NCBI GenBank assembly: GCA_013821455.1
Contig: JACDGS010000011.1
Span: forward strand, 29,061-93,060
Direction: 5' to 3'
Length of the DNA stretch: 64,000 nucleotides
Source: Chthoniobacterales bacterium
Lineage (GTDB): Bacteria > Verrucomicrobiota > Verrucomicrobiia > Chthoniobacterales > UBA10450
Shown: positions 973-63,963 of the stretch, in pieces
Numbering within the stretch: position 1 is the stretch's first letter
Layout: every line of letters begins with the position of its first letter
The notes under the pieces: model-generated
Told to the model about the DNA's origin: nothing
Seen by the model: the letters and a program-made list of their open reading frames with translations, nothing else
The model's database searches: none
Translations under genes and position numbers: made by a program

Positions 973-1005
973 TTTGCCTAACGAACTTCCAAGTCGTTAG
1001 GCGAA
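973..1005. terminator. Inverted pair of the 9-mer forming a hairpin after the propeller gene
   Basis: GCCTAACGA at 976-984 and TCGTTAGGC at 994-1002 face each other across a short spacer whose ACTT and AAG can extend the stem. It sits 40 bases after the stop at 936 and before the convergent stop at 1034. There is no T-run, so a role in termination is inferred from position and fold only. Confidence 0.5.
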
Positions 1006-1033
1006 GAGGTGTCCGGTGCAGCGCCCGGATTTC

Positions 1034-1321
1034 TTACCGTCCGAAAACTAGCCGCAACACGCAGTAGAGCATGTAAAAAACCGGCCACGCGACAACGAGC
1101 ATCAAGCCAGCAAAGAGAATCCACTCGCGTTGCCTTTCGCGCATCATCTCGCGCCGAAATTCCTGATTAAAACGATGGAAACGGCGCGCGGGAGAATCGT
1201 CGTCATCGCCGCCGTCGGGCCAGGAAGAGCCGCGCCAATCGCTCAGGTTGGATTGAAAGCAAAAATCGGTAACCAGAAAACGGCGTCCCGCGCGATTGGA
1301 GAAAGGAGCCTGCGGTTTCAT
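1034..1321 (-). CDS. Small single-span membrane protein, unknown function
   Basis: A 95-residue product starting at the ATG at 1321; codons further upstream in this frame look non-coding. The N-terminal half is polar with an acidic GGDDDD stretch, followed by a basic Arg-rich segment (residues ~50-65) and a C-terminal hydrophobic helix ILFAGLMLVVAWPVFYMLY ending LRLVFGR. This looks like a tail-anchored inner membrane protein. It is divergent from the nitrilase gene across 90 bases, which must hold both promoters. I do not recognise a family. Confidence 0.6.
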   Translation of the reverse strand: MKPQAPFSNRAGRRFLVTDFCFQSNLSDWRGSSWPDGGDDDDSPARRFHRFNQEFRREMMRERQREWILFAGLMLVVAWPVFYMLYCVLRLVFGR

Positions 1322-1411
1322 GAAGCAGGGAAGCGCAGGAAAGATGCCATCGCCCGCCCGAAACGAAAGGGTGACAATTTGCGGCAGGCGACGAAGCGCC
1401 GAGTTTCCCGG

Positions 1412-2236
1412 GTGAAAATCGCGGCCGCCCAAATTGACTGCGTCCCCGGCGAAGTCGCTACGAATCTGCGCAAGCTCGAGGCATTCGCCGAACGCGCGAA
1501 AGCGGCCGGTGCAGACCTGGTGGTGTTTCCAGAAATGGCCGACACCGGTTACGTGATGCCGATTATTCTGCAGTCGGCTTTACCTTGGAGCGAAGGCGCG
1601 GTGCCGGCACTGCGGGAAATCGCGCGGCGTCTTCAGCTCGCGATTATTTGCGGGGTCTCGGAGCGGGTGAAAAACGCGATCTATAACGCGCAGGTTTTCA
1701 TTGATGCGAAAGGCGAGATCGGCGGGAGCTATCGCAAAGCGCATCTCTTCTCCGCCGGCACTCTGGATGAGAGGGAATGCTTTGCGGCCGGAAATGAAAT
1801 TCGGAGTTACGCGTTCGGCGATTTTCGGCTCGGCCTGAGCATCTGTTACGATCTGCGTTTTCCCGAGATTTATCGCGAACTGGCGACGGCGCAGCGCGCG
1901 ACGGTTTTCGTTGTTTCATCGGCCTGGCCTTTTCCGCGGGCGGAACATTTGCGCATCCTCACGCTCGCGCGGGCGATCGAAAATCAGAGTTACCTCGTGC
2001 TCGCCAATCGCGTCGGCACCGATGATGGCGCGACCTTCTGTGGCGGCTCCGCGGTGTTTGATCCCTACGGAAACGTGCTCGGTGCGGGTTCGAGTGAAGG
2101 CGAGGAACTCATCACGGCGGAATTATCGACGGAAGTTTTACGGACGGTGCGGGAGCGCATGGCCGTCTTCACTCATCGACGAGGCGATCTCTACGATTCG
2201 TTAGGCGAACAGGCCGCGGAGACACGCACTCGTTAG
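1412..2236 (+). CDS. Carbon-nitrogen hydrolase (nitrilase/omega-amidase family)
   Basis: A 274-residue protein, the usual family length, starting at the GTG at 1412 (VKIAAAQIDC); the upstream frame extension is non-coding. The nitrilase triad is visible: Glu in VVFPEMADTGY, Lys in GSYRKAHLFS and Cys in LGLSICYDLRFPE, followed by the SSAWPFPRAEH and ALENQ-like (ARAIENQSY) segments. Members hydrolyse amides or nitriles in the cytoplasm, for instance omega-amidase or deaminated glutathione amidase; the substrate cannot be fixed from sequence. The stop codon TAG is part of a CGTTAGGC motif. A family A palindromic repeat follows. Confidence 0.9.
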   Translation: MKIAAAQIDCVPGEVATNLRKLEAFAERAKAAGADLVVFPEMADTGYVMPIILQSALPWSEGAVPALREIARRLQLAIICGVSERVKNAIYNAQVFIDAKGEIGGSYRKAHLFSAGTLDERECFAAGNEIRSYAFGDFRLGLSICYDLRFPEIYRELATAQRATVFVVSSAWPFPRAEHLRILTLARAIENQSYLVLANRVGTDDGATFCGGSAVFDPYGNVLGAGSSEGEELITAELSTEVLRTVRERMAVFTHRRGDLYDSLGEQAAETRTR

Positions 2237-2392: not shown

Positions 2393-3265
2393 TTACCGCA
2401 GGCGAGAACGAGCGTTCGCGCTTTCTAAACGCGACCAGACCGTCAGCGGCGCCAAATTTTGCTGACGGTTCAGCAAACGCGTCCCGGCGGTGGCGATTTT
2501 TTGCAGGATGCGCAACCGCGCGCTCTCCGAACTGTCATGCCAGACCGGTTTGCGCTGCATCGTTAGGCTGCCGCTTTTCTCTACCAGCAAACCCCAGCCT
2601 AACGGCGTCTCCGCTGCGCGCAGGAGTTCGTTAGGCGAGACGAGAAAGAACAGATTCGCACAGGCGTAGTGCGCGATTTTTTCAAACTTACGGCCGTCGC
2701 GCAACTGGCGTTGCAAAGCAGCCAGCTCGCGCGTGACGCGGGCGTAACCGCGATGCTGGATGGCCGCGAAATCGTGCGCTTCCCACTCGGGAAAAAGCGT
2801 GTCGCCGGTGCGCAAAGTCGGGTAATGCACGCGCAGGTTTCGCTCCAGAATCTGGCGGCGCTGGAAGAGGGTTTCGAGCCGTGCGAGAGCGCGCGGACTG
2901 CGGCAATCGTCGCGGCGAAAATCCGGCGCGGATTGTTTGCACTCAAAGATCGCGGTGACGCCGAGGCGGGCATTTTTTTGCGGACGGTAGGCGGCGACGT
3001 CGGCGCGGTAACGAGATTTGGGAAGCGCGACCTCGAGCGCGCAGATCGGATAACCGTTCTCTTGCGCCCAAAGAAGAGCTAAGCGTTTGAGTTCGAGGTG
3101 GGCCGCGGTTTCGCCGTGGCGCTGCCGTTTGTCATCCTGAGCGGATTGAAGGACCCCGCAAGCGTCGCTGGATGTGTTTGTCAAATCGAGTCTGCAGCCG
3201 CTTGGGAGGTCCCTCGCTCCGCTCGGGATGACAATGCTGGCGTCGCGGCCTAACGACGGATCCAT
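2393..3265 (-). CDS. Putative PD-(D/E)XK-type nuclease-like protein
   Basis: The conserved-looking part begins about 3130 (ETAAHLELKRLALLWAQENG) and includes ALEVALPKSRYRADVAAY followed by FECKQS. An Asp then Glu-x-Lys in this spacing is the signature of PD-(D/E)XK nucleases; the assignment is by motif only. The rest is Arg-rich and unrecognised. The start is uncertain: no ATG/GTG/TTG lies between the family A repeat and the core, so translation must start upstream, at the ATG at 3265 (overlapping the hemB end by 16 bases) or a TTG at 3184. The N-terminus is therefore translated repeat DNA. It is probably co-transcribed with hemB. Confidence 0.6.
   Translation of the reverse strand: MDPSLGRDASIVIPSGARDLPSGCRLDLTNTSSDACGVLQSAQDDKRQRHGETAAHLELKRLALLWAQENGYPICALEVALPKSRYRADVAAYRPQKNARLGVTAIFECKQSAPDFRRDDCRSPRALARLETLFQRRQILERNLRVHYPTLRTGDTLFPEWEAHDFAAIQHRGYARVTRELAALQRQLRDGRKFEKIAHYACANLFFLVSPNELLRAAETPLGWGLLVEKSGSLTMQRKPVWHDSSESARLRILQKIATAGTRLLNRQQNLAPLTVWSRLESANARSRLR
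3128..3234. repeat. Family A palindromic repeat inside the 5' end of a gene
   Basis: TGTCATCCTGAGCGGATTG at one end and GCTCGGGATGACA at the other. It is read in frame by the minus-strand gene 2393-3265 as VIPSGARDLPSG followed by VLQSAQDD, because no start codon lies downstream of it. Confidence 0.8.
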
Positions 3266-11560: not shown

Positions 11561-12805
11561 TCATTCCACCGTGGACGAGTGTTGCAAACGGGCGGCGAAA
11601 GCGCCGTCGAAGCCGTCGCGCCAGGGCAGGCTTTTTAGCGTGTTCGTTAGGCGAAACGAAGGATGCCCGCGCAAGAACTCCCCCACGACGTCTTCGTTCT
11701 CCTCGGGTTCAAGGCTGCAGGTGCTGTAAACTAACGAGCCTCCCGGATTGAGAAGCGGCGCGAGGTGATCCAGAAGAGCGAGCTGTTGCGCCGGCATTTT
11801 CACGAAGTCGTTAGGCCGCAGCCGCCAGCGGACATCGACGCGACGGCGCATCACACCGGTGTTGCTGCAGGGTGCGTCGAGCAAAATTTTGTCGAAGAAC
11901 CGATCGCGAACAGGGAACTCGCTCTCAAGCCAACCATGGCCCATCACGGTGGTGTTGTGAACGCCCAGCCTAACGAGATTGCCGCGCAAACGGTCGAGCC
12001 TGTCTCCGGCGCGATCGACGGCTGTGAGCGAACCCTGATTCTCCAACAGGGCCGCGAGATATGCCGATTTGCCACCAGGCGCGGCGCAGGCATCCAAAAT
12101 CGATTCGTTAGGCTGCGGGTCTAGCAGATCGCAGGCGAGCGTCGTGCCCGGATCCTGCATGTAGCAGTCGCCGCCCGCCAGCGCCGACGCGGGATCGGGC
12201 AGCCTAACAAAAAGCGGGCGCGTGGTCACCGGCGCGCTGGTCGGATATTTCGCGAGAAAATCTGCGGCGGTGATTTTCAGTGAGTTGATGCGCGCATACG
12301 ATTGCGCGGGCTTGTTATTCCATTGGCAAAACTCCCGCGCGGCCTCGGGTCCGAAGTGCTGGCGCCATTTTTCTACGAGGAATTCCGGCTCGGAATAGCG
12401 GACCGCGTCCGGCTGTTCCTCTGCCAGATTCGTTAGGCGAACTTTTTCGCGCAGCGCGCGGCGCAGGAGCGCGTTTACGAGCGGGCGTGTGCGTTTCGCC
12501 GCCAGCTCGACCGTTTCGAAAACGGCGGCATGGGCAGCGGTTTCGATGAGCAAAATTTGGTAAAGGCCAAGTCGCAGAATATCGCGCGAGTGAGGGTCGA
12601 TGGGCGTGTCGCGCACTTGCGCGATCCAGAAATCGAGCAAGGTGAGATTGCGCAGGACACCGTAGAAAAGCTCGAGCGCAAACGCGCGATCGACGGCGCG
12701 GAGGCCGCTGTCGGCGAACGTGAGGGCCACTATTTTATTGGCGAATTCCGTGCCGGCTCGCCAGCGACGCAAGGCGGCGAGCGCGAGGGAGCGGGATGTT
12801 TTCAT
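11561..12805 (-). CDS. rsmB: 16S rRNA (cytosine-967-C5)-methyltransferase RsmB
   Basis: A 414-residue protein from the ATG at 12805 (MKTSRSLALAALRRW). Upstream codons belong to a family A repeat and were excluded. An N-terminal NusB-like RNA-binding domain (residues ~1-140, with VDRAFALELFYGVLRNL) is followed by the SAM methyltransferase fold: DACAAPGGKSAYLAALL, DAPCSNTGVMRR with one catalytic Cys and YSTCSLEPEENEDVV with the other. It methylates C967 of 16S rRNA. Six or more 9-mer copies lie within it, read for example as QPNES and RLTN. Confidence 0.93.
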   Translation of the reverse strand: MKTSRSLALAALRRWRAGTEFANKIVALTFADSGLRAVDRAFALELFYGVLRNLTLLDFWIAQVRDTPIDPHSRDILRLGLYQILLIETAAHAAVFETVELAAKRTRPLVNALLRRALREKVRLTNLAEEQPDAVRYSEPEFLVEKWRQHFGPEAAREFCQWNNKPAQSYARINSLKITAADFLAKYPTSAPVTTRPLFVRLPDPASALAGGDCYMQDPGTTLACDLLDPQPNESILDACAAPGGKSAYLAALLENQGSLTAVDRAGDRLDRLRGNLVRLGVHNTTVMGHGWLESEFPVRDRFFDKILLDAPCSNTGVMRRRVDVRWRLRPNDFVKMPAQQLALLDHLAPLLNPGGSLVYSTCSLEPEENEDVVGEFLRGHPSFRLTNTLKSLPWRDGFDGAFAARLQHSSTVE

Positions 12806-12834
12806 CGTTAGGCGACGAGTGGCGCGACGCCGCT

Positions 12835-12925
12835 TTGTCATCTCGAGCGAAGCGAGGGAGCCCGCCGGCGCTTCGCCGACGTCGTTAGGCAAGAGCGGGG
12901 TCCCTCGCTCCGCTCGGGATAACAC
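12835..12925. repeat. Family A palindromic repeat
   Basis: Runs from TTTGTCATCTCGAGCGAAGC to CTCCGCTCGGGATAACA between ugd and rsmB. It contains a 9-mer copy at 12882, showing that the 9-mer also invades or is kept in these repeats. Confidence 0.8.
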
Positions 12926-44582: not shown

Positions 44583-46460
44583 ATGATCGATTTCTGCGTT
44601 TATTTTCTCTATCGCGGCGCGCTCGCTCTCATCGTCGCGCTCCCTTTGCGCGCAGATGTTTTTCTCGGGCGCACGCTCGGATTTCTGGCGTGGATGGCGC
44701 TCGTGAAGTACCGACGACTGGCGCGCCGCAACGTGGAGATTGCTTTTGGCGCGGCGCTGAATCGCGCAGAAAAAAGCAAACTGGTCCGCCGGCATTTTCA
44801 GCGGCTCGGCGCCAACCTGCTCAGCGGGATGAAGCTCAATTCGCTGTCTTTGGAAAAGGTCGCGCCGCTTGTCACGATGGAAGGAGCCGATGAGGTGCAT
44901 CGGTATTTGCGGGCCGGCCGGCCGGTGGTAGTTGCGCTCGGTCATCTTGGGAACTGGGAGCTTTTCGCGCAGATTATGCCGCACTATTTCGGCTACGCGC
45001 GGCTCGGCACTGTTTTTCAGAAGCTGGGCAATCGCCGCATTGACGAATTCGTTAGGCAGCAACGTGCGCGTTTCGGCGTGCAGTTGTTCGATCGCAGCGA
45101 AGGTTTCGCCGAGGCGATTCGTTTGCTCCGCGGCGGCGGATTGATCGGCATCCTGAGCGATCAACATGCGGGCGATCACGGACTCTGGACGCCCTTCTTC
45201 GGCCGGCTCGCTTCGACCACGCCGCTCCCTGGATTGCTCTGTAAACGGACCGGCGCGGCGCTCTTCGCGGCCTCGCTCTACCCGGCCGGGCCGGGGAAAT
45301 GGCGGATGACTTTCACGCCAGCTTTCAATCAGCCTAACGACAGCGTCCAGTCACTCACGGCGAAGACAAATGCGGTGATTGCCGATGAGATTCGGCGAGC
45401 GCCGGAGGATTGGTTTTGGGTTCATAACCGCTGGAAAACTCCGCGCCCGAATTGGCTGCTCAGTAAATATAAGCGCGGGGTTTTCGTGCCTAACGAGTCC
45501 GGGAAAAGCCTGCAACCTTTTCGGATTTTGATTCGTGCGAGCAACTGGCTGGGCGACAGCGTCATCAGTATTCCGGCGGTGCGTGCGATCAAGCGCGGGC
45601 GCCCGGACGCGCACGTCGTCGTGCTCGCTCCGGAGAAAATTGCCGCGGTCTGGCGGCTCGTGCCCGAGGTGGATGAAGTGCTTTCGTTAGGCAAAATGTC
45701 GTTGCCTGCGGTGCGCCGGTTGCTGCGGCGGCAAATACCTTTCGACGCCGGCGTTCTCTTTCCAAACTCTCTGCGCAGCGCGCTCGAACTTTGGCTCGGC
45801 GGAATTCCACGGCGGGTTGGTTACGCAGGGCACTATCGCCGCTGGCTCCTGGAGCAAGTGGTGCTGCCACTTGAACGAAAAGGTCCGCCGCCGCATCAGG
45901 TGGAACACTTTCTCGATCTTGCGCGCTCGTTAGGCGTGGAGGCGGAAGTAGGGGAGATCGCTCTCGCCTCGGCGTCGCCGCCGCGCTCGCGGCCAGGACG
46001 CTACGGCCTTTGTCCCGGGGCGGAATACGGACCGGCCAAGCGCTGGCTGCCGGAACGTTTCGCGGAGACCGCGGCGGCGATCGGAGGGCATTGGATTATT
46101 TTCGGGACGGAGGCGGATCGAGAAGTCGGGGGAAAAGTGGCCGATCTGCTCGGCGAGAAATGCAGCAACCGCGTTGGCCTAACGACCTTGGAGCAATTGA
46201 TCGAAGAGCTGCAAGAGTGCGCGTTGCTTCTCACGAACGACACCGGCACGATGCACCTCGCTTCATTGTTAGGCGTACCGGTGGTGGCGGTCTTCGGCTC
46301 CACGGAGCCAAGGCTGACCGGGCCGTTGGGGAAGAGTGTGGTCGTTAGGCATCAAGTCGAGTGCAGCCCATGTTTTCTGCGGGATTGCCCGCTGGATTTC
46401 CGCTGCATGAACGCGGTGACGGTTGAGGAAGTAGTCGCGGTCATCCCGAGCGGAGCGTAG
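44583..46460 (+). CDS. Fusion of a lipid A acyltransferase (LpxL/HtrB type) and a heptosyltransferase (WaaF type)
   Basis: 625 residues. Residues 1-~295 are a LPLAT acyltransferase: an N-terminal membrane helix, VVALGHLGNWELFA with the HxxxxE box, GILSDQHAGDHG, WFWVHNRWK. Residues ~315-620 are GT9: ILIRASNWLGDSVISIPAVR, LFPNSLRSALELWLGG, CPGAEYGPAKRWLPERFAE, LLTNDTGTMHLASLLGVPVV, VECSPCFLRDCPLDFRCM. The linker (~300-310, RGVFVPNESGKS) contains a 9-mer copy. Both steps act on the inner face of the inner membrane during LPS core-lipid A assembly. The last codons (AVIPSGA) and stop are in a family A repeat. Confidence 0.9.
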   Translation: MIDFCVYFLYRGALALIVALPLRADVFLGRTLGFLAWMALVKYRRLARRNVEIAFGAALNRAEKSKLVRRHFQRLGANLLSGMKLNSLSLEKVAPLVTMEGADEVHRYLRAGRPVVVALGHLGNWELFAQIMPHYFGYARLGTVFQKLGNRRIDEFVRQQRARFGVQLFDRSEGFAEAIRLLRGGGLIGILSDQHAGDHGLWTPFFGRLASTTPLPGLLCKRTGAALFAASLYPAGPGKWRMTFTPAFNQPNDSVQSLTAKTNAVIADEIRRAPEDWFWVHNRWKTPRPNWLLSKYKRGVFVPNESGKSLQPFRILIRASNWLGDSVISIPAVRAIKRGRPDAHVVVLAPEKIAAVWRLVPEVDEVLSLGKMSLPAVRRLLRRQIPFDAGVLFPNSLRSALELWLGGIPRRVGYAGHYRRWLLEQVVLPLERKGPPPHQVEHFLDLARSLGVEAEVGEIALASASPPRSRPGRYGLCPGAEYGPAKRWLPERFAETAAAIGGHWIIFGTEADREVGGKVADLLGEKCSNRVGLTTLEQLIEELQECALLLTNDTGTMHLASLLGVPVVAVFGSTEPRLTGPLGKSVVVRHQVECSPCFLRDCPLDFRCMNAVTVEEVVAVIPSGA

Positions 46461-47995: not shown

Positions 47996-48934
47996 TCAGA
48001 AATGAAGTGTTGGGGAGGAAAAACCGCGAAAAAACTCCGGCGCGCTCAAGCGGCGTTTGCCTTCGAGCTGGACTTCCTCCAGCCGCAAACCGCTTCGGCC
48101 GGTGGCGACGACAACGGTGTCGTTAGGCTGAGAAACCGTGCCGGGCTTTTCGTTAGGCGAACCGGCGACCACGGAGGCGCGAAATATTTTCAGATGCCGT
48201 TGTTTACCGGCCACATCGGTCAGCTCGGTGAACATGCCGGGCCACGGATCAAAGGCACGAATTTTGCGTTCGATCGTCGAGGCCTCTTCCTGCCAGTCGA
48301 TGCGGCCGTCGGCGCGTTCTAATTTCGGCGCGTAGGTGGCGCGCGAATTATCCTGCGGCGCGCGTGGAGCCTCGCTGGCGTCGAGTTGTTCGAGCGCGTC
48401 GAGCAATGCGGCTGGCGCGAGTTGGGAAAGACGATCATGGAGCGAAGCGCCGGTTTCGTTAGGCGCAATCGTTAGGCGAGATTGCGAGAGGATATCGCCG
48501 GTATCCAGGCCTTCGTCCATGTACATCACGGTGATACCGGTCTCCTCGTCGCCGCCCGCGATGGCGGCTTGAATCGGCGCCGCTCCACGATGCTGCGGCA
48601 GCAGGGAAGCATGCAGATTCAGGCAGGCGAGGCGCGGCAAGGCGAGCACGCTCTTCGGCAGAATTTGCCCGTAAGCCATGACCACAATCAGGTCCGGCGT
48701 CAGATCGCGAATCGCGGTGACCGCGTTCTCCTCGCGGATTCGAGCCGGCTGCAAAATCGGGATGCCCGTTTGCAGGAGCGCTGCTTTGATTGTCGAGGCT
48801 GTAATGCGCTGCGCGCGGCCGACAGGTTTATCCGGCTGCGTGACCGCTCCGACGACCTCGTGCTCGGGCGCGCGCAGCAGGGCCTGCAACGTCGGCACGC
48901 CGATCTCGCCTGTGCCGATGAAGATGATGCGCAT
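47996..48934 (-). CDS. fmt: Methionyl-tRNA formyltransferase
   Basis: 312 residues. Formylates initiator Met-t[35 protein letters not shown], the catalytic Asn-His in [20 protein letters not shown], and Asp in [12 protein letters not shown]-terminal OB-like tRNA domain ([20 protein letters not shown]). Two tight direct pairs of the 9-mer (48119/48149 and 48457/48469) lie in it. Confidence 0.96.
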
Positions 48935-54145: not shown

Positions 54146-54550
54146 CTAAGGCAAAGTATGGCGGCGATTTTGCCTAACGATGGCCAGATCGGGCGTGTTC
54201 ACGCCGCCATCGGCGTTCACGTCGAGACGGAAATTATTTTGGTTCGTCGCTTGCGTCCGGTCGGCGCGGACCGCCCCGACATCCGCGAAATTCACCACCC
54301 CATCCGCATTCACGTCGGCGATCAATTTTCCATAACGCACCGAGGCGAGGTCAAGAGAGTTACCCTGATCGTCCTGTAAACCGCTTACGTACACCAGGAT
54401 GGTTTCTTGATCGCAATCCGAGGCATCGACCGTGACCAGCACGCTATGCGCATTATCCGGATCGATCGTCGCACTCATGACGCTGCCGCAACTAGAATTG
54501 GCTTCGTTGAATCCGGTCACGTTCGTGCCAAAGTTAAACACGATCGTGTC
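54146..54550 (-). pseudogene. C-terminal remnant of a second dockerin-type protein
   Basis: About 135 residues. DTIVFNFGTNVTGFNEANSS, then CGSVMSATIDPDNAHSVLV and two calcium loops (ADVNADGVVNFAD, LDVNADGGVNTPD) align with the end of the gene at 52085-53950. There is no signal peptide or proper start; the frame runs into the transposon end and meets a stop there. It is the broken 3' end of a gene in the same orientation as the fragment beyond the element. Confidence 0.85.
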
Positions 54551-55690
54551 GGGGGGGCGGCCTGGGGGTCACGTCTAAACATTTTGACATTTCTTTTCCA
54601 GGTTGGCCAGTGAGTGATAGAGGAGACCTTGCGCGTCCCTCATCAATGTCCGACGCACCCGCTGGGCTACCGCCGCATACTCCACTCCGCCAAACATCTG
54701 GCCGATCTCGCGATAGCTCAGGTCGCTCAGACCTCGCAATAAGGCCATCGCCACTCCGCGCTCTTCCGACCATTTCCCGCGCTCTTTTTCAGTGCCCCAT
54801 GTCTCCTTCGTGCGCGCGTAGGCGGCCTCGACACACGCGATGATCCGCCCGGGCTCCATCCACCTTCCCCGGGCGCTTCCTTTTGGACGTAACTGCCGTT
54901 CGGCCGTACTCTCACGTCGGCCATCGCTCTGCGCGTTGAGCCGATCGACCACTTCCTGCACAAAACCCTCACTCCCCAGAATGGTCTGGGCCACCAGTTC
55001 CTCGCGGGGATCGGTCAATGGCTCGATCAAGCCTCGCTCGATGAAGCGCCCATATTCCCGCCGGCACTTTGCCACCGGGCTCCGGCGCGGCAGGGAACGG
55101 GCCATCTCTCCCAGGACAAGATCTTCGGTTACCCATTTCCATTGCGCCCGCAACCCCCCATACCCGGGATAGCTGCTCCAGATATAGGCCCGCAATCGCT
55201 CCCGCCGGGTCGAAACCGTTTCCCGCGCCCGCGCCGCCCCGCGCACCGGATTCAAATGCAGGTATCGACTCAACTCCAGCAGATAGCTCTCCGTTTCTAC
55301 CAAGTGACTCTTGAAGCGGCCCTGGAAGAGGTGGCCGTGCCCCACCCGTCTGTGCCGCCGCTGAAACTCGATCGCATAAGTCGAGAGGAGCCAATGCATC
55401 CAACGGCTCAGATTGGCCCGGCGCGTCTGGGCGAGGAGATGAAAATGATTGCCCATGAGGACAAAGGCATGCAGGTCGACGTCGAAGCGCGCGAGAGATT
55501 GCGCCAGAAGATCTAGAAAACGTTGCGAATCCGAGTCGCGTTCAAAGATCGCCTGTCGGCGATTGCCGCGCGCAATCAGATGATAGAGCGCCCCGTCATA
55601 TTCAATCCGCAACGGCCTGGCCATCCGCGCAGTTTGAGTAACCTGGTCAGAATGTCAAAATGTTTAGATGTGACCCTAAATGTCCCCCCC
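54551..55690. mobile_element. Transposase element with long terminal inverted repeats
   Basis: A 26-base inverted repeat at 54566-54591 and 55651-55676 differs at one position (GGGTCACGTC against GGGTCACATC at the outer end, then TAAACATTTTGACATT). Just outside lie 7 G (54551-54557) and 7 C (55684-55690), so the ends may be ~40 bases. The only gene is a Y1/REP-associated transposase. No target duplication is apparent. It sits between two pieces of dockerin/Ig-type genes. Confidence 0.85.
54575..55624 (-). CDS. REP-associated tyrosine transposase (Y1/IS200-like family)
   Basis: 349 residues. MARPLRIEYDGALYHLIARG start, FVLMGNHFHLLAQT with the HUH metal site, and LFQGRFKSHLVETESYLLEL: Y1_Tnp/RAYT family, which cuts single-stranded DNA at hairpins. 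A C-terminal extension ends in a helix-turn-helix (LSYREIGQMFGGVEYAAVAQ). Its stop codon lies inside the terminal inverted repeat. The frame is intact, so the element may be active. Confidence 0.93.
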   Translation of the reverse strand: MARPLRIEYDGALYHLIARGNRRQAIFERDSDSQRFLDLLAQSLARFDVDLHAFVLMGNHFHLLAQTRRANLSRWMHWLLSTYAIEFQRRHRRVGHGHLFQGRFKSHLVETESYLLELSRYLHLNPVRGAARARETVSTRRERLRAYIWSSYPGYGGLRAQWKWVTEDLVLGEMARSLPRRSPVAKCRREYGRFIERGLIEPLTDPREELVAQTILGSEGFVQEVVDRLNAQSDGRRESTAERQLRPKGSARGRWMEPGRIIACVEAAYARTKETWGTEKERGKWSEERGVAMALLRGLSDLSYREIGQMFGGVEYAAVAQRVRRTLMRDAQGLLYHSLANLEKKCQNV

Positions 55691-56719
55691 AAGCTTGGTG
55701 TTAGAGGACGTCGCGATGACCCTTAGGTCTTGTAAGCTTGAGGTCGTGGAAGCGACCCGGTAGTTAAATGCATAAGGAGACGCCGTGGGAGACGGACAGA
55801 CCAGATAGGTCTTTTGGCTGACAGGGTCATTTGCTACGGATGGTGCCGACTTACTGGAGTCGATTACCTGCAAGACGGATGAGGTACTAGTCGAATAGGT
55901 TCCGTCGTCGGCTTTCACTGTTATTACCGTGTAACCCGTCTGATTAGTTTTGCAGGTTGCCGAAAGCAGATACTGCCGTGACCCATACGTATCGATGCTG
56001 TCCCCCTGCGGCGGAGGTGGGACTGGCATTAGTGTGAGCTGGACGGCATTAGGATTCATCCCGGTTGGGTCAAAGTCGTCCAGTAGCATGTGATTGCTTG
56101 ACGTTGCGGTCACATTCACGCTCGTGACGTCGATCATGTTCATCGTATTGAGGTCGCCAATGACGAACATTGTACTATAAATCCCCCCGCCGGATTGAAG
56201 TTGGACGGCTTCGCTCGGAAGACTCTGAATCCACGGAGGGTTTATACTAGATCCGAGCTGAACCGTAAAGGAGCTATATCCTATTTTGCCGCTGGTATTC
56301 TCAGTCGCTGTGATTTGAATTGTGGCCGTGCCTGAACCGTTGGTAGAGTTGGGAAACCATACTTTGTAATATCCGTTTGGGCAGCCGGTGTCGCCCCCGA
56401 CACATGGTCCCACCCGCAGATGCAGTGTATCGTTGGGTACTACGGAGGTGTTGTCGGAGGTTGCCAGTAGCGTAACTCCGTAGCCATCGATATCCGTTAC
56501 CGGGAAGTAAACGGTGCTGAACTTACCCGAGGTCACTCTTTGATCCTTGATCCACCCTGCCACTGGGGGGTGAAAGTAGGGGGGCGTGGTAGCAACTAAG
56601 CTCATCGCGCCTAAGATAACGCCGATTACCATTATGGATGTGGCGAAGAAGGAACAACTGTGAGAGATAAATTTTCGATTGATCTTCCCGCGGAATTTGG
56701 ATAGGGATTGGGTTGTCAT
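55676..56719 (-). pseudogene. N-terminal part of a secreted Ig/cadherin-like repeat protein, cut by the transposase element
   Basis: About 347 residues from the ATG at 56719, with a signal/membrane segment (FFATSIMVIGVILGAMSLVA) and at least three ~95-residue beta domains containing VTATSSNHMLL-type motifs. The last domain stops after LRVIATSSNTKL, where homologous domains continue with Val-Pro-Asn; the following Gly-Gly-Asp-Ile and stop are transposon-encoded. Together with the dockerin remnant on the other side it looks like a gene broken by the insertion, possibly with loss of the middle. Lower GC than its neighbours and no 9-mer. Confidence 0.75.
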
Positions 56720-56775
56720 AAGCGTTGTGTTAAACGAAGTAAACTTCTCTTTGCAAGCTTCTTTTAATGAAAGGC

Positions 56776-58014
56776 TCAACGATTGCTCCCGCGGATTTCC
56801 GCAGCCAACCAGCCGCCGGAGAAACTTCTCCAGTTAAGAAGGAGTTCTGGTTCCTGGTAAGCGCCAATTGCGAGGCCGGTGTATTGCCAATAGCCAGAGA
56901 AAGTCGGGCCATTTATCTCATCGGCGCTCGCCACCAGCCAATACTTTGTTCCCTTGGCCAGCGCCACTGCGCCAGGCAAAGTAACCGTCGTCAGCTCGCA
57001 ACACTCCCCTGCGTCAGGAATGGCCGTCGTACTGCCCTCACCACCTGGAAGAAGTGTTCCGGGCACCCCTCCGTTGTCGGTATATATGCCGAGCTTAACC
57101 AGCTTCGTCCCCGATTCGTAGGCGATCGCGACCGAAAGCGTTGTCGCCTGCACGTTAGTTCTTGGTGTGAACGGCAGCGCGGTCGAAACCTGAGGACCCA
57201 TGAAGGATTGACTTCCGTAAATCGGATTTCCAGACCCAAAAAGGTAAGGTTCGTCGGGCGGACGATCCAGGTTACTAAAGATAATAGCACCACTGTTACC
57301 CGATTCTTTAAGCTCTGTTCGGACTCGGGCCGCTTCATTGAGACCGCCTGATGTTCGCGTCCCGCGGATTTGCGCCGCCCCCCACTGACCGAAAGTAAAG
57401 CCCCAGGGGAAAGGAGGCACCAAGCCTGCATAGAAGCCCGAGTAGGACAGTTGCCAGCCGCCTTCGAACGTTGCCCCGTTGACGTCATCTGGACTTGCGA
57501 CCAGCCAGTAAATTGTGCCCGCGGCAAGAGTCACTCCTTCTCCCGGAAGGGTTACACTGGTGAGTTGGCAGCAAACGCCGACATCCGGAATGTTGCTTGT
57601 ACTAGCTTCTCCCCCGGGTAACACAATTCCCACTGATTGCGTAGCCTCGTTGTTACTGTAGATGCCCAGCCGCACTAACCTGTCGCCGGACGTGTAGCCA
57701 ATTGCCGCGCTCAAAACCTTTGCTTGCAGATTTCCCTTAGGAATGAAACGGATGGCTTGCCACCGCTCGGTATCGGGAGCTCTTTCGCCGGCGATAGGAA
57801 GGGTAGCAAAACTATTTGCGTAGTAGTGATTGCCCGGAGTTCGGTCGAGATTGGAAAAAATAACGTAGGGCGCGTTCGCCGCGTTTTCATCGGCATAAGG
57901 AAGGACGACTTCCGACGATTCGCCCGGAGCGAGCTGCTGCGCGAAGCCGGTTCCGCAAGCAACAGAAGCGAAGAGCGCCATGAGAGCGATTTTTTCGATG
58001 AATATTATGCTCAT
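56776..58014 (-). CDS. Secreted protein with two tandem ~200-residue domains
   Basis: 412 residues from the ATG at 58014 (or 428 from 58062). Signal peptide (ALMALFASVACGTGFAQ). Two copies of one domain: VIFSNLDRTPGNHYYANSFA, LVRLGIYSNNEATQ, IPDVGVCCQLTSVTLPGEGV, YWLVASPDDVNGATFEGGW; and IIFSNLDRPPDEPYLFGSGN, LVKLGIYTDNGG, IPDAGECCELTTVTLPG, YWLVASADEINGPTFSGYW. This resembles choice-of-anchor surface domains. Each has an adjacent Cys-Cys pair. No dockerin or sorting tail. Composition differs from the core genes. Confidence 0.8.
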   Translation of the reverse strand: MSIIFIEKIALMALFASVACGTGFAQQLAPGESSEVVLPYADENAANAPYVIFSNLDRTPGNHYYANSFATLPIAGERAPDTERWQAIRFIPKGNLQAKVLSAAIGYTSGDRLVRLGIYSNNEATQSVGIVLPGGEASTSNIPDVGVCCQLTSVTLPGEGVTLAAGTIYWLVASPDDVNGATFEGGWQLSYSGFYAGLVPPFPWGFTFGQWGAAQIRGTRTSGGLNEAARVRTELKESGNSGAIIFSNLDRPPDEPYLFGSGNPIYGSQSFMGPQVSTALPFTPRTNVQATTLSVAIAYESGTKLVKLGIYTDNGGVPGTLLPGGEGSTTAIPDAGECCELTTVTLPGAVALAKGTKYWLVASADEINGPTFSGYWQYTGLAIGAYQEPELLLNWRSFSGGWLAAEIRGSNR

Positions 58015-58062
58015 TGTTTTCCGATTAACGGAGGTGGGAACGTTAGAGTCAAGACTTTTCAC

Positions 58063-58632
58063 GTGACAATCTTAAGCGCGAGCCCGCAACCAGAGATGAC
58101 ACGGCTAAGTACGGATGGAGGAACCTTCTCAGTGTCAATCTGCGGCATTTTCAGTTCATCGTCAGTTAACAACCAAGCTGAAACCTCAAATGCTGAGTAA
58201 AGTAACTAACGGGATTTAGACAGAGCGCGGAAGTTGGCTCTTATCTTCCTATCCAGCAAATCCCTCGTTCCCAAAGTCTCTTTGGGGAACGCACCTGTTC
58301 TTGAAAATCCGTTTCGGCGTCCCCCTGTCCATCTCTCAATGTCCGAGACAGCCACGTCAGCGGCGGATGTTTGAAGCGGTCTGGATCCCGTCCGCTGGAA
58401 ATATGAAACAGAGTTTCGAGAACAGCGCGCGTTCCCAAACGGGAGTTTGGGAACGAGGGGATAGAAAAACTGAAAGGCTGGAATGCGGAAGGGGAGAACT
58501 AACGGGATTTAGGCGGCGGCTCGGAAGCTGGTCCTGATCTTCCTATCCAGTAAATCCAGTAAATCCTGTCTAGGTCCTACGTTTCGTTTGAAGGCTTATC
58601 CGATAACTCCAACACTGCCGTGACTGCGACCC
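58063..58632. other. Repeat-rich intergenic region
   Basis: No gene seen. Two direct ~60-base repeats (58203-58262 and 58499-58558) share AACTAACGGGATTTAG, then TTCCTATCCAG and AAATCC. Between them are two hairpins around GTTCCCAAA and TTTGGGAACG (about 58264-58290 and 58431-58456). All look like small non-coding repeat families, typical of accessory DNA. Confidence 0.7.
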
Positions 58633-58845
58633 TCATCCCCGATCCGAGGACCGGGCGAGACGGAGAAACTCCTCAGCATCCGAGCGCGCGACAGAAGGAA
58701 ATTCCTTCAGGAAGCCGTCCAAATCGTACCCATCCTGGAGGTAGTCGAGCAGGGTTTGGGCGGGAACGCGAGAACCGCGAAACACGAGCGTGCCGCCCAA
58801 CCGCTCCGGGTCGGAATGAACGGGGCTATGCTCGAGAGTGATCAT
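58633..58845 (-). CDS. DUF433 antitoxin-like protein, without partner
   Basis: 70 residues: LGGTLVFRGSRVPAQTLLDY, LQDGYDLDGFLKEFPSVARS, DAEEFLRLA. DUF433 proteins are usually VapB-like antitoxins encoded just before a DUF5615 PIN-like toxin. Here the downstream minus-strand DNA is only repeats, so the toxin is missing. Possibly a remnant of a toxin-antitoxin pair. Confidence 0.85.
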   Translation of the reverse strand: MITLEHSPVHSDPERLGGTLVFRGSRVPAQTLLDYLQDGYDLDGFLKEFPSVARSDAEEFLRLARSSDRG

Positions 58846-59063
58846 AAGGAGAAGCTATGGCTTCGGACATCGGTCGCAAGGCAAATATCCGGGTTCAGGC
58901 ATTATCGGGGGCAGGTGAGCAAGTTGAAGCCGCTTCGCTGTGCGAAGCGAGACGCGGGTCTCGAGGCGGTGAAATATAGATCGAGCCGCGCTTCGGACAG
59001 CGAAGCGGCTACAGGCGTCTTTTTATCTTTCGCCTTTCTACTTTCTCCTTTCTACTTGCTTCC
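58846..59063. other. Intergenic region with a family D inverted repeat and a pyrimidine tract
   Basis: GAAGCCGCTTCGCTGTGCGA at ~58925 faces CGGACAGCGAAGCGGCTACA at ~59000, an imperfect long hairpin. Just before the aldehyde dehydrogenase ATG is a C/T-rich tract (CTTTCTACTTTCTCCTTTCT) without a usual ribosome binding site. Confidence 0.6.
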
Positions 59064-60611
59064 ATGTCTCGGAAGACGAAACACGCTGCCGCCGCGCTCG
59101 CGGTGCGCGAGCCGGCTGCTCTCGCTCCCGCACGCGGCGCGCTCGCGCCTAACGAACGGCACTTGCGCTTTGGCGACCGCTGGGCTTACGCGCCTGCCCC
59201 GGAACAGAGTGATTACCTCCAGATCAAATCGCGCTATCAGCTTTTCATCGATGGAAAATTTCGCGCGCCGCACTCCGGGAAGCATTTCGATTCGATCAAT
59301 CCCGCGACGGAAAAAAAGCTGGCTGAGATCGCGGAAGGTGACGCGCATGACATCGATCTCGCGGTGAAAGCGGCGCGGCGCGCGCACGACAAGGTCTGGA
59401 GCAAAATGGCGGGCCGCGAGCGCGGCAAATATCTCTACCGGATCGCACGTCTCGTGCAGGAGAAAGCGCGCGAGCTGGCGGTGCTGGAGACGATGGATGG
59501 CGGCAAGACGATCAAGGAAAGCCGCGATGTCGATCTGCCGCTGGTCGCGGCGCACTTTTTCTATTACGCGGGCTGGGCGGATAAGCTGGACTACGCTTTC
59601 CCGGGGAGAAAAGCGCGTTCGTTAGGCGTGGCGGGGCAGATTATTCCCTGGAATTTCCCATTGCTCATGGCGGCATGGAAACTCGCGCCCGCTCTCGCCG
59701 CCGGGAACACCTGCGTGCTTAAGCCGGCCGAGACGACCAGCATCACCGCACTGCATTTGGCCGAGATTTTTCAGGAAGCCGAGCTGCCGGAGGGCGTGGT
59801 GAATATCGTGACCGGGGCGCGCGCGACCGGTCAGGCGCTGGTCGATCATCCCGACGTGAACAAACTCGCCTTCACCGGCTCGACCGCGGTGGGCAAGATG
59901 CTGACCCGCGCCGTCGCCGGAACGAAAAAGCGCCTCACCTTGGAACTCGGCGGCAAGGCGGCCAACATCATTTTCGAAGACGCTGCCATCGATCAGGCGG
60001 TCGAAGGCATCGTCAGCGGGATTTATTTTAACCAGGGCCACGTTTGTTGCGCGGGCTCGCGGCTGCTCGTGCAGGAGGGTGTTTTCCCGGCGGTCATCCG
60101 CAAGCTGCGCGATCGCATTTCCACCCTTCGAGTCGGGGATCCGCTGGACAAGAACACCGACATCGGCGCGATCAATTCGCGCATGCAGCTCGATAAGATC
60201 TGCGAACTGGTCGAGAGCGGCGTGCAGCAGGGCGCGGAGTTGGTGCAACCGCGGCTCCGGTTGCCGGAAAAAGGCTACTGGTATCCGCCGAGTTTCTTTA
60301 CCGGGGTGACGGCATCCCATCGCATCGCGCAGGAAGAGATCTTCGGACCGGTCCTAAGTGTCATGACTTTCCGCACTCCGGAGGAGGCGATCGAGCGCGC
60401 GAATAATACAGCCTATGGATTGAGCGCCGGTGTCTGGACTGACAAAGGGAGCAAGATTTTTAAGATCGTGAGCAAATTGCGCGCGGGCGTGGTCTGGGCA
60501 AACACTTACAATAAGTTCGACCCGACCAGTCCTTTCGGTGGCTACAAAGAGAGCGGCTTCGGACGCGAAGGTGGAGTGCACGGGCTCGCGCCTTATCTGG
60601 CGCTCGGCTGA
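59064..60611 (+). CDS. NAD(P)-dependent aldehyde dehydrogenase
   Basis: 515 residues. ALDH superfamily: IIPWNFPLLMAAWKLAPALA, LKPAETTSITALHLAEIF, FTGSTAVGKMLTRAVAG, catalytic Glu in LTLELGGKAANIIFEDA and Cys in FNQGHVCCAGSRL (~residue 328), EEIFGPVLSVMTF, SPFGGYKESGFGREGG. Similar in pattern to betaine/gamma-aminobutyraldehyde types; the substrate is unknown. A 35-residue Ala-rich N-terminal extension is present, including a 9-mer copy (APNERH). Confidence 0.93.
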   Translation: MSRKTKHAAAALAVREPAALAPARGALAPNERHLRFGDRWAYAPAPEQSDYLQIKSRYQLFIDGKFRAPHSGKHFDSINPATEKKLAEIAEGDAHDIDLAVKAARRAHDKVWSKMAGRERGKYLYRIARLVQEKARELAVLETMDGGKTIKESRDVDLPLVAAHFFYYAGWADKLDYAFPGRKARSLGVAGQIIPWNFPLLMAAWKLAPALAAGNTCVLKPAETTSITALHLAEIFQEAELPEGVVNIVTGARATGQALVDHPDVNKLAFTGSTAVGKMLTRAVAGTKKRLTLELGGKAANIIFEDAAIDQAVEGIVSGIYFNQGHVCCAGSRLLVQEGVFPAVIRKLRDRISTLRVGDPLDKNTDIGAINSRMQLDKICELVESGVQQGAELVQPRLRLPEKGYWYPPSFFTGVTASHRIAQEEIFGPVLSVMTFRTPEEAIERANNTAYGLSAGVWTDKGSKIFKIVSKLRAGVVWANTYNKFDPTSPFGGYKESGFGREGGVHGLAPYLALG

Positions 60612-60613
60612 GT

Positions 60614-60728
60614 GTGTCATCCCGAGTGAAGGGAGGGACCCCGCAAGCGTTGCTCGACTTGATTTTTCCGTTGGCGCCGAATAACGCTTGCGAGGTCCTT
60701 CGCCGCACTTCGCCGGCTCAGGATGACA
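60614..60728. repeat. Family A palindromic repeat
   Basis: From GTGTCATCCCGAGTGAAGGG to CGCCGGCTCAGGATGACAG, with arms GGGACCCCGCAAGCG and CGCTTGCGAGGTCC. Lies between the aldehyde dehydrogenase and helicase genes. Confidence 0.85.
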
Positions 60729-60817
60729 GAATATGCGCGAGGCCTCGCGGGCCGCTGAGTCCTTTACTCGTTAGGCAGAAGTGTTGGCGAGGGCAGCTTG
60801 TCCCACAGTCGTCACGT

Positions 60818-63800
60818 GTGCCGGTCTGGCGACGAGAAGTTGCTTCGCGGGATATCGCGGACCTCGGTGGAAAATTGCGTAGCCATCTCCCGCACGGACA
60901 CTTCGCGGTGGCTATTACCCTCACCGAGAAATTGCTCTCCAGCGCCGGCGGCTGGGAGGCAATGAAGGCGGGGCGCGAGCTGGTCAAAGCCGGGCGCGTT
61001 TCCGAGGCCATTTACGATCCGCCGATGCTTCGCGGCGAAGTGCGCGAGGGTGGGAGAAAATTCCGCGCCGGTTTGCGCATCGGCGGCGTCAGCGACCTGG
61101 AAAATATTTGCACCTGCCGCGAGTCGCGGGAGTGGGGAAAAATTTGCGCGCATTCGCTGGCGGTCGGGTTGGCGTTTCTCGCGCCGCCGGTGAAGCCGGT
61201 CTTGCCCGCGACTGCCGCGGCGCCTGCATCTGCCATGCGGAAGTTTTCCCGAGCGGGCGAACCCGAAACGATCCCAGTCGCGCTGCACGTTATTCTCCCC
61301 GCCAACTTTTCGAGCGCGTGGGAGAAAGGGCAGATCATGGTCTGTCTCGAAGCCGAGGCGGGCGACCGGCGGTTCATGCTCGACGCCTTGCCCGCCGATT
61401 TTCGAGCCGGCCTCGACGATCGCGACCTGGCACTCACGGAACAGATCAGCAGCGGTATGAATATGCTTTCTGCCGCGGAGTTCCTCGATCTGCTGCCCTG
61501 CTTGCGCGGACACGAACGATTAACGTTTGGCCGCGCCAAAACTGCGGACGTCGCCGAAGACATTTTTCGCCTAACGATTAAAGTCGAGCGGGCTAAAGGC
61601 GACAGCTTCCAAATCGCGGCGGCGAAAAAGCCTAACGAATCGTTCCTTGTGGCCGGTAATAGCGCCTGGCTCTGGCGCGAGCAGGAGTTTTTCGAAATCG
61701 GGCGCGACCTGCCGCTTAGCCTAACGAGCGTCCTGCGCGAACCATTCCGGTTCTCTGCCGCGCGCGCGGGCGAACTTTTCGCCTTCGACTTGCCGCTCTG
61801 GCGCGAGATGGTCGAGTTGGTTTTGCCTGACGGGATGACTCTGCCGGCAGTGGTGGCGGCGTCTCCGGAGTTCGCGCTGAAAATCGAGGGCTCGCTTCAG
61901 CACTTGCGCGCTACTCTTTCCTGTCGTTACGGCGATCGCCCGGCCTTCTTCCCCACCGCCGAGCCGCAGCAGAATTTCGTCCTGCGCGATCTGGGAAATC
62001 CCGAGAGGCTGCTCGTCCGCAATCTTCCCGCCGAGACCGCGGCGGTCGCGCGTTACGAAGCCTGCGGTTTTGTCGAAGGGGAGATGCGCGATCAGGCACG
62101 TGCGGCGCGCTTTTTAGCATTCGCTTATCCGGCCCTGGCAGAAGGGTGGAAAGTCTCGCTCGCGCCCTCGTTAGGCAAAGCGCGCGCCGCGCTCGAGCCG
62201 GTCGCTCCGACGATCGAGATTGTCAGCTCCGGGGAGGATTGGTTCGAGCTGCGGTATTCCGTCGCGACCGCCGGCGGCGAACACATTCCGCTCGCCGAGG
62301 TGCAGCGCCTCCTGCGCTCCGGCCAGAGCCGGCTGCAGTTAAAGAACGGCAGGCAAGCCGTCCTCGATCCCGCGGCGCTGGACGATTTCGAGCAACTCCT
62401 GCGCGACGCCGATCCGCGGCAGCGAGAACCGGGGGTTTACCGGCTCGATAAAATCCAGGCCGGTTACCTCACGAGCACCGCGGCCGAGATCGGCGCGCGC
62501 CTGGTCGATGCCGCGCGCGCCCTGAGCCTAACGAACAACCCGCCCGATCTTGGTTCGTTAGGGAAAAAATTGCGCGATTATCAGCGCACCGGCGTCGCCT
62601 GGCTCGCCGCGCTCGCCGCGCAAAAACTCGGCGGCATTCTCGCGGATGAGATGGGCCTCGGGAAAACCGTGCAGGCGCTCGCTTTCTTGCAGCTCCGCAA
62701 GGGTAACGGTCCCGCCCTCATCGTCTGCCCGACTTCGCTCCTCGCGAACTGGCAGCGCGAAGCGGCGCGCTTCACGCCGGAACTGCGCGTGCTCGTGCTC
62801 GACGGCCCGAACCGCACTGACAAAATCGCGCGCCTCGCCGAGCATGATCTCGGCCTAACGAGTTATGGATTGCTGCGCCGCGACGCCGAAATGTATGGGC
62901 GCCTCACTTTCGATTCCGTCGTTCTCGACGAGGCCCAGCACATCAAGAATCCCGACACCCAAAACGCGCAGGCTGCTTTTAACCTGCGCAGCCGGCAGCG
63001 CTTCGTTCTCACCGGCACGCCGATGGAAAACTCCGTGCGCGATCTTTGGTCGCTGATGAATTTCGTTGCCCCAGGTTATCTCGGGAGTCGCGCGGATTTT
63101 CGTGAACGCTATGAGAAGCCGCTCACGGCCGGTCCTGAACCCGAGCTGCAACGCCGCCTCTCCCGCCGGTTGCGGCCGTTTCTTTTGCGTCGCCGCAAGG
63201 CGGAGGTCGCGAAGGAATTGCCGGCCAAGATCGAACAGGTGGTCCCGTGCGATCTCGGGCCAGCGCAACGCGCGACGTATGACGCGCTTCTGCGCGAGAT
63301 CCAGCAAGGCCTCGGCTCTTCTTTGCCTAACGACGGCGCGCGCCGCATGAAGATGCTGACCGGTCTTCTTCGGCTGCGCCAGACCTGTTGCGACTTGCGC
63401 CTCCTCGGCCTTCCGCCTAACGACTCGGCCGAAACCTCGGCCAAGCTCGCTTTGCTCGACGAGCTGCTGGAGGAAATCATCGATGGCGGCCATCGCGTGC
63501 TTATTTTCAGCCAGTTCGTCACTATGCTCGATCTCGTTAGGCAACGGCTCGTCGCCAGTGAGACCGCTCATTGCTATCTCGCCGGGCTAACGAGAAATCG
63601 GCAGGGGGAGGTCGATCGTTTTCAAAATGACGCGGCGATTCCGGTCTTTCTCATCAGCCTGAAGGCGGGCGGGGTAGGCTTGAATCTCTCCGCCGCCGAC
63701 ACCGTGATTCATTTCGACCCGTGGTGGAATGCCGCGGTCGAAGCGCAGGCGACCGATCGCGCCCATCGCATCGGCCAGACGCGAGTCGTCACGGCTTACA

Positions 63801-63949
63801 AGCTGATCGCGCGCGATACCGTCGAGGAAAAAATTCTCAAGCTGCAAAACCGGAAACGCGAACTCGCCGGCGCGATGTTGGAGAGCGACGAAGCGCCTTT
63901 GATGAATGGCCTAACGACGACGGATCTGGAAGAATTGCTCTCTCGTTAG
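60818..63949 (+). CDS. SNF2-family helicase with SWIM zinc finger
   Basis: 1043 residues from a GTG at 60818; the longer frame begins inside the family A repeat. SWIM finger near ~97-118 (ICTCRESREWGKICAHSLAV), a ~400-residue bacterial SNF2 N-terminal region, then SNF2 ATPase: GGILADEMGLGKTVQALAFL (~605), VVLDEAQHIKN, TGTPMENSVRDLWSLMNF, and the helicase C-domain ISLKAGGVGLNLSAADTVIH and DRAHRIGQTR. DNA-remodelling ATPase; target unknown. It carries about ten 9-mer copies (read as SLTN, KPNES, GLTS), a high density. TAG stop in a motif copy. Confidence 0.93.
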   Translation: MPVWRREVASRDIADLGGKLRSHLPHGHFAVAITLTEKLLSSAGGWEAMKAGRELVKAGRVSEAIYDPPMLRGEVREGGRKFRAGLRIGGVSDLENICTCRESREWGKICAHSLAVGLAFLAPPVKPVLPATAAAPASAMRKFSRAGEPETIPVALHVILPANFSSAWEKGQIMVCLEAEAGDRRFMLDALPADFRAGLDDRDLALTEQISSGMNMLSAAEFLDLLPCLRGHERLTFGRAKTADVAEDIFRLTIKVERAKGDSFQIAAAKKPNESFLVAGNSAWLWREQEFFEIGRDLPLSLTSVLREPFRFSAARAGELFAFDLPLWREMVELVLPDGMTLPAVVAASPEFALKIEGSLQHLRATLSCRYGDRPAFFPTAEPQQNFVLRDLGNPERLLVRNLPAETAAVARYEACGFVEGEMRDQARAARFLAFAYPALAEGWKVSLAPSLGKARAALEPVAPTIEIVSSGEDWFELRYSVATAGGEHIPLAEVQRLLRSGQSRLQLKNGRQAVLDPAALDDFEQLLRDADPRQREPGVYRLDKIQAGYLTSTAAEIGARLVDAARALSLTNNPPDLGSLGKKLRDYQRTGVAWLAALAAQKLGGILADEMGLGKTVQALAFLQLRKGNGPALIVCPTSLLANWQREAARFTPELRVLVLDGPNRTDKIARLAEHDLGLTSYGLLRRDAEMYGRLTFDSVVLDEAQHIKNPDTQNAQAAFNLRSRQRFVLTGTPMENSVRDLWSLMNFVAPGYLGSRADFRERYEKPLTAGPEPELQRRLSRRLRPFLLRRRKAEVAKELPAKIEQVVPCDLGPAQRATYDALLREIQQGLGSSLPNDGARRMKMLTGLLRLRQTCCDLRLLGLPPNDSAETSAKLALLDELLEEIIDGGHRVLIFSQFVTMLDLVRQRLVASETAHCYLAGLTRNRQGEVDRFQNDAAIPVFLISLKAGGVGLNLSAADTVIHFDPWWNAAVEAQATDRAHRIGQTRVVTAYKLIARDTVEEKILKLQNRKRELAGAMLESDEAPLMNGLTTTDLEELLSR

Positions 63950-63963
63950 GCGTGCGCGCCGCC

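Follow-up and report, generated by a model that had tools for sequence, protein, structure and literature searches.

Recognition of own DNA through short words during uptake is, according to a 2025 paper (PMC12616744), known from two families only, the Neisseriaceae and the Pasteurellaceae. Both families belong to the Proteobacteria. Here, we analysed a stretch of 64,000 nucleotides, referred to as the window, from a Chthoniobacterales bacterium of the phylum Verrucomicrobiota (NCBI GenBank assembly GCA_013821455.1, contig JACDGS010000011.1, positions 29,061 to 93,060 of the forward strand), in which a nine-base word, TCGTTAGGC, is densely repeated. This word is likely a DNA uptake sequence, i.e. 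a genome-wide self-tag for the DNA of kin. If true, it would be a third case, in another phylum, indicating that the uptake-word trait arises repeatedly, and it would imply natural transformation in the Verrucomicrobiota that carry it. No report of an uptake word in this phylum was found among the literature matches listed, most subscription papers and bioRxiv lying outside the search; with the letter strings of the words as queries, no title on the subject appeared among the matches listed.

The DNA uptake sequences (DUS) of the Neisseriaceae, which have ComP as their receptor, are described as conserved within permissive flanks and scarce in low-GC acquired DNA (PMC2397512), and as lineage-specific dialects which all have a common core (PMC3630211). 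For the uptake signal sequences (USS) of the Pasteurellaceae, the words AAGTGCGGT and ACAAGCGGT are given, with ComN as the proposed receptor (PMC12616744), and a bias to gene ends is reported (PMC2346458). The invariant cores are CTG in DUS and GCGG in USS (PMC12616744). As in the accounts of neisserial DUS (PMC2397512, PMC3630211), TCGTTAGGC has thousands of copies in both orientations, in and between genes, is conserved within permissive flanks, is scarce in low-GC DNA and is lineage-specific. With USS it shares a nine-base core, very many copies in both orientations, copies in genes and a type IV pilus and ComEC machinery.

However, neither TCGTTAGGC nor AAGATCGACA, a second word found in part of the family, contains CTG or GCGG on either strand and, because these cores are absent, the two words are not members of DUS or USS. 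Unlike the DUS dialects, which have a common core (PMC3630211), they also share no core with each other. Other differences from DUS are the phylum, the lack of a singled-out candidate for ComP and the rarity of close inverted pairs of TCGTTAGGC, which are described as frequent for neisserial DUS, while the difference from USS extends to the gene ends, for which no clear bias was seen. Another very frequent, genome-wide word is HIP1 (highly iterated palindrome 1) of cyanobacteria, a palindromic octamer (GCGATCGC) with an unexplained function. TCGTTAGGC is likewise a very frequent short word present genome-wide in and outside genes but, unlike HIP1, both TCGTTAGGC and AAGATCGACA are non-palindromic and differ between sister clades.

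Density and placement of the word

The window holds 105 exact copies of TCGTTAGGC between positions 976 and 63951 (59 on the forward and 46 on the reverse strand; first start 976, last start 63943), within a few of the approximately 108 counted in the initial annotation and far above the 1.6 expected from an order-3 Markov model. The 8-mers CGTTAGGC and TCGTTAGG occur here 110 and 114 times, respectively. As had also been noted, the word lies both in and between genes, with 79 window copies wholly within called genes and 26 not. In the whole genome (G000; 4,302,014 bases in 117 contigs, 97% complete), 4,605 copies were found (2,299 forward and 2,306 reverse), approximately 75 times the 62 copies of the same word read backwards, which served as control. 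TCGTTAGGC is also the top 9-mer in 428 kb of G000 beyond the window (513 copies). It therefore combines a short, non-palindromic form with a genome-wide excess in both orientations, as expected for an uptake sequence.

Placement was analysed in 24 stretches of G000 (491,770 bp, window included), in which genes were called by a simple custom codon model (approximately 84% coding) with approximate gene boundaries. This 492-kb sample contains 618 copies, compared to 10.8 expected from the order-3 Markov model. Of these, 450 are located within genes (1.09 per kb) and 168 are not fully within genes (2.17 per kb), making the word about twice as dense between genes as in genes. A stop codon arises in two of its six reading frames, and the other four account for 445 of the 450 coding copies. 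This use of every stop-free frame comes at the cost of rare codons, with 114 of 729 TTA, 82 of 395 AGG and 120 of 531 CTA codons falling inside copies of the word. In the 121 intergenic copies compared, the preferred bases are A at -2, a pyrimidine at -1, a purine at +1 and A at +2; past -5 and +3, none of the positions reaches p 0.001.

The number of copies correlates with GC content over 95 bins of 5 kb (rho 0.59, p 5e-10). Low-GC bins are word-poor, with a mean of 1.2 copies in the ten lowest-GC bins and 8.6 in the ten highest. Low GC serves here only as a proxy for acquired DNA; as judged by eye, these bins encode surface, pilin-like and unassigned proteins.

Conservation and distribution among relatives

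Protein pairs between G000 and eleven relatives were defined as reciprocal best hits within the stretches fetched from each genome, and codon alignments were made. Retention was scored as an identical word in the relative and compared to 9-mers with equally conserved flanks, with p values as Poisson approximations. Out of 98 TCGTTAGGC sites comparable with relative G004, 40 are identical (9.3 expected). The same holds for 18 of 47 sites in G001 (4.8 expected), 7 of 10 in G005 (0.7 expected) and 16 of 77 in G014 (4.7 expected). In the reverse direction, G000 has the identical word at 40 of 48 G004 sites (4.2 expected). G003, with only four sites, one of them identical, was left out of the counts. 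Among the word-poor relatives, identical sites amount to 1/58 in G016 (2.8 expected), 2/51 in G006 (2.0), 1/30 in G009 (1.0), 0/18 in G023 (0.9), 0/17 in G007 (0.6) and 3/35 in G010 (1.5), i.e. the word is not kept there clearly beyond the flank-matched expectation. Retention is thus approximately four times that of flank-matched 9-mers and is confined to genomes rich in the word, which agrees with the biased retention predicted in the initial annotation.

The flanks of TCGTTAGGC are less conserved than average (0.709 versus 0.746 with G004). A conserved word in permissive flanks, together with scarcity in low-GC DNA, is what is expected from an uptake sequence. Few sites fall in alignment gaps (0/98 with G004, 3/50 with G001 and 6/83 with G014), indicating that most copies arose by substitution or conversion and not by insertion.

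The phylum is also borne out by a PyrH-like protein of the window, whose nearest named relatives lie on contigs of Verrucomicrobia or Verrucomicrobiota bacteria, the best with 77-78% identity. The word was then counted in related genomes, a check proposed in the initial annotation. The survey of the order covered 117 genomes, G000 included, with 73 genomes of the family of G000 and 44 of other families. The four other genomes of the same genus carry 1,410-2,754 copies each, G005, the only genome of the sister genus, 2,147 and G014, from a further genus, 1,802. The word-rich set therefore comprises seven genomes of three genera with 1,410-4,605 copies. The remaining 66 genomes of the family have 19 to 587 copies. 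All 44 genomes of the other families are at background, with at most 30 copies, fewer in each genome than those of its reversed control. Among 286 genomes drawn from the class (8 of the family), 5 of the 278 non-family genomes exceed the reversed control, with a maximum of 133 copies in 6.3 Mb.

Two smaller observations were made during this survey. G010 (genus g7) has 16 scattered copies of the word in 115 kb, many of them with C next. In Verrucomicrobia bacterium AV16 (L044), AATGACGAA occurs 12 times in 20.7 kb and may be a repetitive extragenic palindromic (REP)-type repeat or a further word.

A second word in the family

A second dense word, AAGATCGACA, unrelated to TCGTTAGGC, surfaced in a 20-kb piece of G014. 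The whole genome of G014 (2.9 Mb) has 4,653 copies (2,314/2,339), in addition to the 1,802 of TCGTTAGGC. In genera g5, g6, g9, g12, g13 and g14, the genomes hold 74 to 1,509 copies, compared to only 19-29 in the genus of the window and at most 29 in the other families of the order. Carriers of the 10-mer AAGATCGACA(W), where W is A or T, include G014, G009, G012, G015, G016, G021 and G023; in Verrucomicrobia bacterium AV37 (L043:1-20723), 14 copies are found in 20.7 kb. In G014, AAGATCGACA reaches a density of 3.99 per kb outside genes versus 1.41 inside, with 0.75 and 0.66, respectively, for TCGTTAGGC. In 83 intergenic copies of AAGATCGACA, the next base is always A or T, mostly G or C stands before the word, C is preferred at +5 and weaker preferences extend from -9 to +20. 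This flank preference reaches further than that of TCGTTAGGC.

Like the first word, AAGATCGACA is retained among its users. Sites of G014 are identical in 8 of 23 cases in G009 (1.1 expected), 10 of 83 in G016 (4.4 expected) and 3 of 21 in G023 (1.0 expected). In non-users, these numbers are 0/115 (G000), 0/82 (G004), 0/40 (G006), 1/40 (G010) and 0/18 (G007). An rpoB tree of 27 rows groups g1 with g2 (support 96/92) and the remainder of the family together (84/84). Within the tree, one clade unites the second-word genera g5, g6, g11, g13 and g14 with g4, a genus poor in both words. The support of this clade is 90/99, below the starred threshold, and the tree does not include g9 and g12.

Next, near-misses were counted as the excess of one-mismatch copies per excess exact copy, a ratio expected to be low if a word is maintained. 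For TCGTTAGGC, the ratio is 0.28 in G000, 0.47 in G001 and 0.53 in G004. For AAGATCGACA, it is 0.12 in G014, and 0.35 in G009 and 0.79 in G023, both small samples. More near-misses than exact copies of AAGATCGACA are present in G016 (1.68) and in G008 (1.37, from 9 exact copies in 48 kb). Of the 13 comparable coding AAGATCGACA copies of G016, 10 are identical in G014 (0.8 expected), which would fit the gradual loss of an older set of copies from G016.

In G014, TCGTTAGGC has a near-miss ratio of 0.79, about half of which comes from one variant, TTGTTAGGC. A 260-kb sample of this genome contains 67 copies of the variant beside 174 of TCGTTAGGC, as if the second base were relaxed. The first word may therefore be kept in G014 in a relaxed form, or it may be fading. 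Its TCGTTAGGC sites are identical in 16 of 50 cases in G000 (3.6 expected) and 15 of 41 in G004 (2.8 expected), and in none of the sites compared with its closer relatives (G016 0/46, G009 0/8 and G023 0/11). Flank similarity between G014 and G000 is not significantly higher at the 16 shared sites than at the 34 others (0.699 versus 0.659, p 0.33). Therefore, there is no sign of recent import, and the pattern would fit an ancestral TCGTTAGGC lost elsewhere.

Taken together, it is likely that both words are uptake sequences and that they originated independently. Within the family, an outright replacement of the word seems to have occurred, in which AAGATCGACA would have taken the place of TCGTTAGGC along one branch. 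A fuller account would be a third origin of uptake tags, outside the Proteobacteria, in which an ancestral TCGTTAGGC was replaced by the unrelated AAGATCGACA(W) in a later clade, with one genome reading both words and the second word decaying elsewhere after loss of its reader; we regard this account as evenly poised between right and wrong. If such replacement is real, each word switch would have ended gene exchange between a lineage and its relatives. Two unrelated words, one two-word genome and apparently decaying words would form a natural series on the question of drive versus benefit in the spread of uptake words, and the same series bears on how a receptor could change its specificity.

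Competence genes and explanations for the word

The reading of TCGTTAGGC as an uptake sequence is based on its orientation-free density, its cost in frames and codons, its permissive flanks, its user-specific retention and its scarcity in low-GC DNA, since these resemble the marks of neisserial DUS as given in PMC2397512. According to this reading, a type IV pilus receptor, presumably a pilin, is predicted to bind TCGTTAGGC. DNA from kin would be preferentially taken up and recombined, which would spread the word and keep its copies in place, and transformation would occur in the carriers.

The genes for such a process were searched for, as suggested in the initial annotation. ComEC is present in 108 of the 117 genomes and DprA in 105, in both cases including G000. 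In addition, G000 encodes two PilB-type ATPases, a PilC-type protein and a pilin in a row, and its PilT-type genes form two pairs and one single, of which two were scanned and score above the cut-off. Apart from the PilB/PilC-type row, there is a type II secretion cluster. For the PilB/GspE- and PilC/GspF-type proteins, NCBIfam scores fall short of the curated cut-offs and do not decide between pilus and type II secretion. The machinery expected for uptake (ComEC, DprA, PilB/PilC-type and PilT proteins, with pilins) is thus largely in place, whereas for ComEA only sub-threshold hits were obtained. None of the outcomes named in advance as speaking against uptake, i.e. a genome-wide count close to expectation, an absence of competence genes or a strict strand polarity around ori and ter, was seen. 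Density, lack of polarity and user-specific retention support the uptake reading, and the competence genes permit it.

N_methyl pilin hits number 15 in G000, some of them short and basic, and 15-19 per genome in four genomes of the family. The 75 pilin-like sequences of these four genomes include some false hits, e.g. ComEC, and 45 of them cluster into one group. A multi-genome cluster matching the users of one word was not found among these 75 sequences, all four genomes being word carriers. G110, a word-free genome from another family of the order, has 122 N_methyl hits.

Several observations weigh against the uptake reading. Regarding the machinery, the ComEC_Rec2 equivalog score (168.5) is lower than the cut-off of 190, with the Pfam Competence and ComEC N-terminal models passing. 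The ComEA family gave only sub-threshold helix-hairpin-helix hits, in 7 of 13 genomes; the hit of G000 sits in an open reading frame (ORF) of 307 aa, which is not a simple ComEA. ComEC and DprA are equally common in relatives without the word and, because of this, they permit uptake without singling it out or accounting for where the word occurs. The 15-19 pilin hits per genome did not yield a distinct receptor candidate. Regarding distribution, dense TCGTTAGGC is missing from most genera of the family, and no dense word of any kind, a third one included, was found in samples of g3, g4, g7 and g8 (20 to 75 kb per genome), where other enriched strings resembled local or REP-type repeats. Regarding placement in the 492-kb sample, the distances between copies of TCGTTAGGC follow a nearly exponential distribution with somewhat too many long gaps, i.e. 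they are close to random and not regular, and the copies show no clear preference for gene ends. The frequent inverted pairs at gene ends described in the initial annotation were not borne out either: only 9 of the 36 neighbours less than 50 bp apart are inverted and 27 have the same orientation (p 0.004 for the same-orientation excess). In the window, 3 of 7 pairs less than 60 bp apart are inverted, one of them at 976..1002 (976 on the reverse and 994 on the forward strand).

Among the alternatives, the most probable is that the word is bound by a DNA protein inside the cell, such as a nucleoid organiser, an orphan methylase or a factor for repair or recombination, and is kept site by site through selection, comparable to HIP1. 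Retention at orthologous sites would fit any selection for the word, and AAGATCGACA contains GATC. However, such a protein offers no ready reason for the scarcity in low-GC stretches, for two unrelated non-palindromic words in sister clades with one genome holding both, or for a rare-codon cost borne genome-wide. Methylation sites are also not usually enriched tens of times over expectation. This explanation is therefore considered unlikely.

A second alternative is a signal for recombination or segregation with strand polarity, such as Chi or the FtsK orienting polar sequences (KOPS). The word has a suitable form for this, being short, non-palindromic and very frequent, and its strand follows GC skew in a weak, non-significant trend (rho 0.39, p 0.06). 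Nevertheless, the two strands are evenly used among the 24 stretches (317/301, chi2 14.7, 23 d.f., p 0.90) without placement of ori and ter, in line with the near-equal genome counts and with the initial annotation, which had seen no strong orientation bias. The G-rich strand holds 323 copies versus 295 on the other (p 0.28), and copies oriented against the gene (253) exceed those with the gene (197; p 0.009), the reverse of the preference shown by Chi. A Chi- or KOPS-like identity was set aside on the missing strand polarity and is very improbable.

Equally improbable are remnants of a mobile repeat (REP or miniature inverted-repeat transposable element) spread by a transposase. The window does encode a REP-type (Y1) transposase at 54575-55624 and contains REP-like CGCTCGGGATGAC repeats, at 3220, 6038, 6174, 27117, 46440 and 50744. 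On the other hand, the sequence preference around the 121 intergenic copies ends three to five bases either side, hardly any sites fall in gaps (0/98 with G004 and 3/50 with G001) and the word is non-palindromic. Moreover, the longest TCGTTAGGC-free stretch of the window (54181..59146, 4,966 bp) surrounds the transposase gene.

Finally, a by-product of codon or oligonucleotide bias, favoured only by the high counts of the word's parts, has next to no chance given the excess over the Markov expectation (618 versus 10.8) and the reversed control (4,605 versus 62), the use of the rare codons TTA, AGG and CTA and the higher density outside genes. Mobile repeats, composition bias and terminator pairs were each tested and set aside.

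Genes of the window

The dense spread of TCGTTAGGC in conserved genes, pointed out in the initial annotation, was confirmed for all three genes named there. rsmB (11561..12925, reverse strand) holds seven copies, starting at 11644, 11808, 11968, 12105, 12430, 12805 and 12882. Four copies (starts 48120, 48150, 48456 and 48469) are located in the gene at 47996..48934 on the reverse strand, which only the initial annotation names fmt. The ORF of an SNF2-family helicase (60614..63949, forward strand) contains twelve.

Seven further copies are found in a gene at 44583..46460 on the forward strand, homologues of which were used to locate the syntenic regions in relatives. It encodes one protein of 625 aa that joins a lipid A acyltransferase and a heptosyltransferase II. 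A single frame matches this fusion over nearly its full length in 10 of the 12 relatives searched; in G003 it is present as two pieces on two contigs, and G002 gave weak matches only.

Besides the transposase, the word-free stretch contains two ORFs without Pfam hits (55676-56779 and 56776-58062), and the transposase itself has a sub-threshold match resembling the C-terminal part of DnaA. The ORF at 26109-28808 combines a metallo-beta-lactamase-type N-terminal part, with a score just above the Pfam cut-off, with an ATP-dependent DNA ligase.

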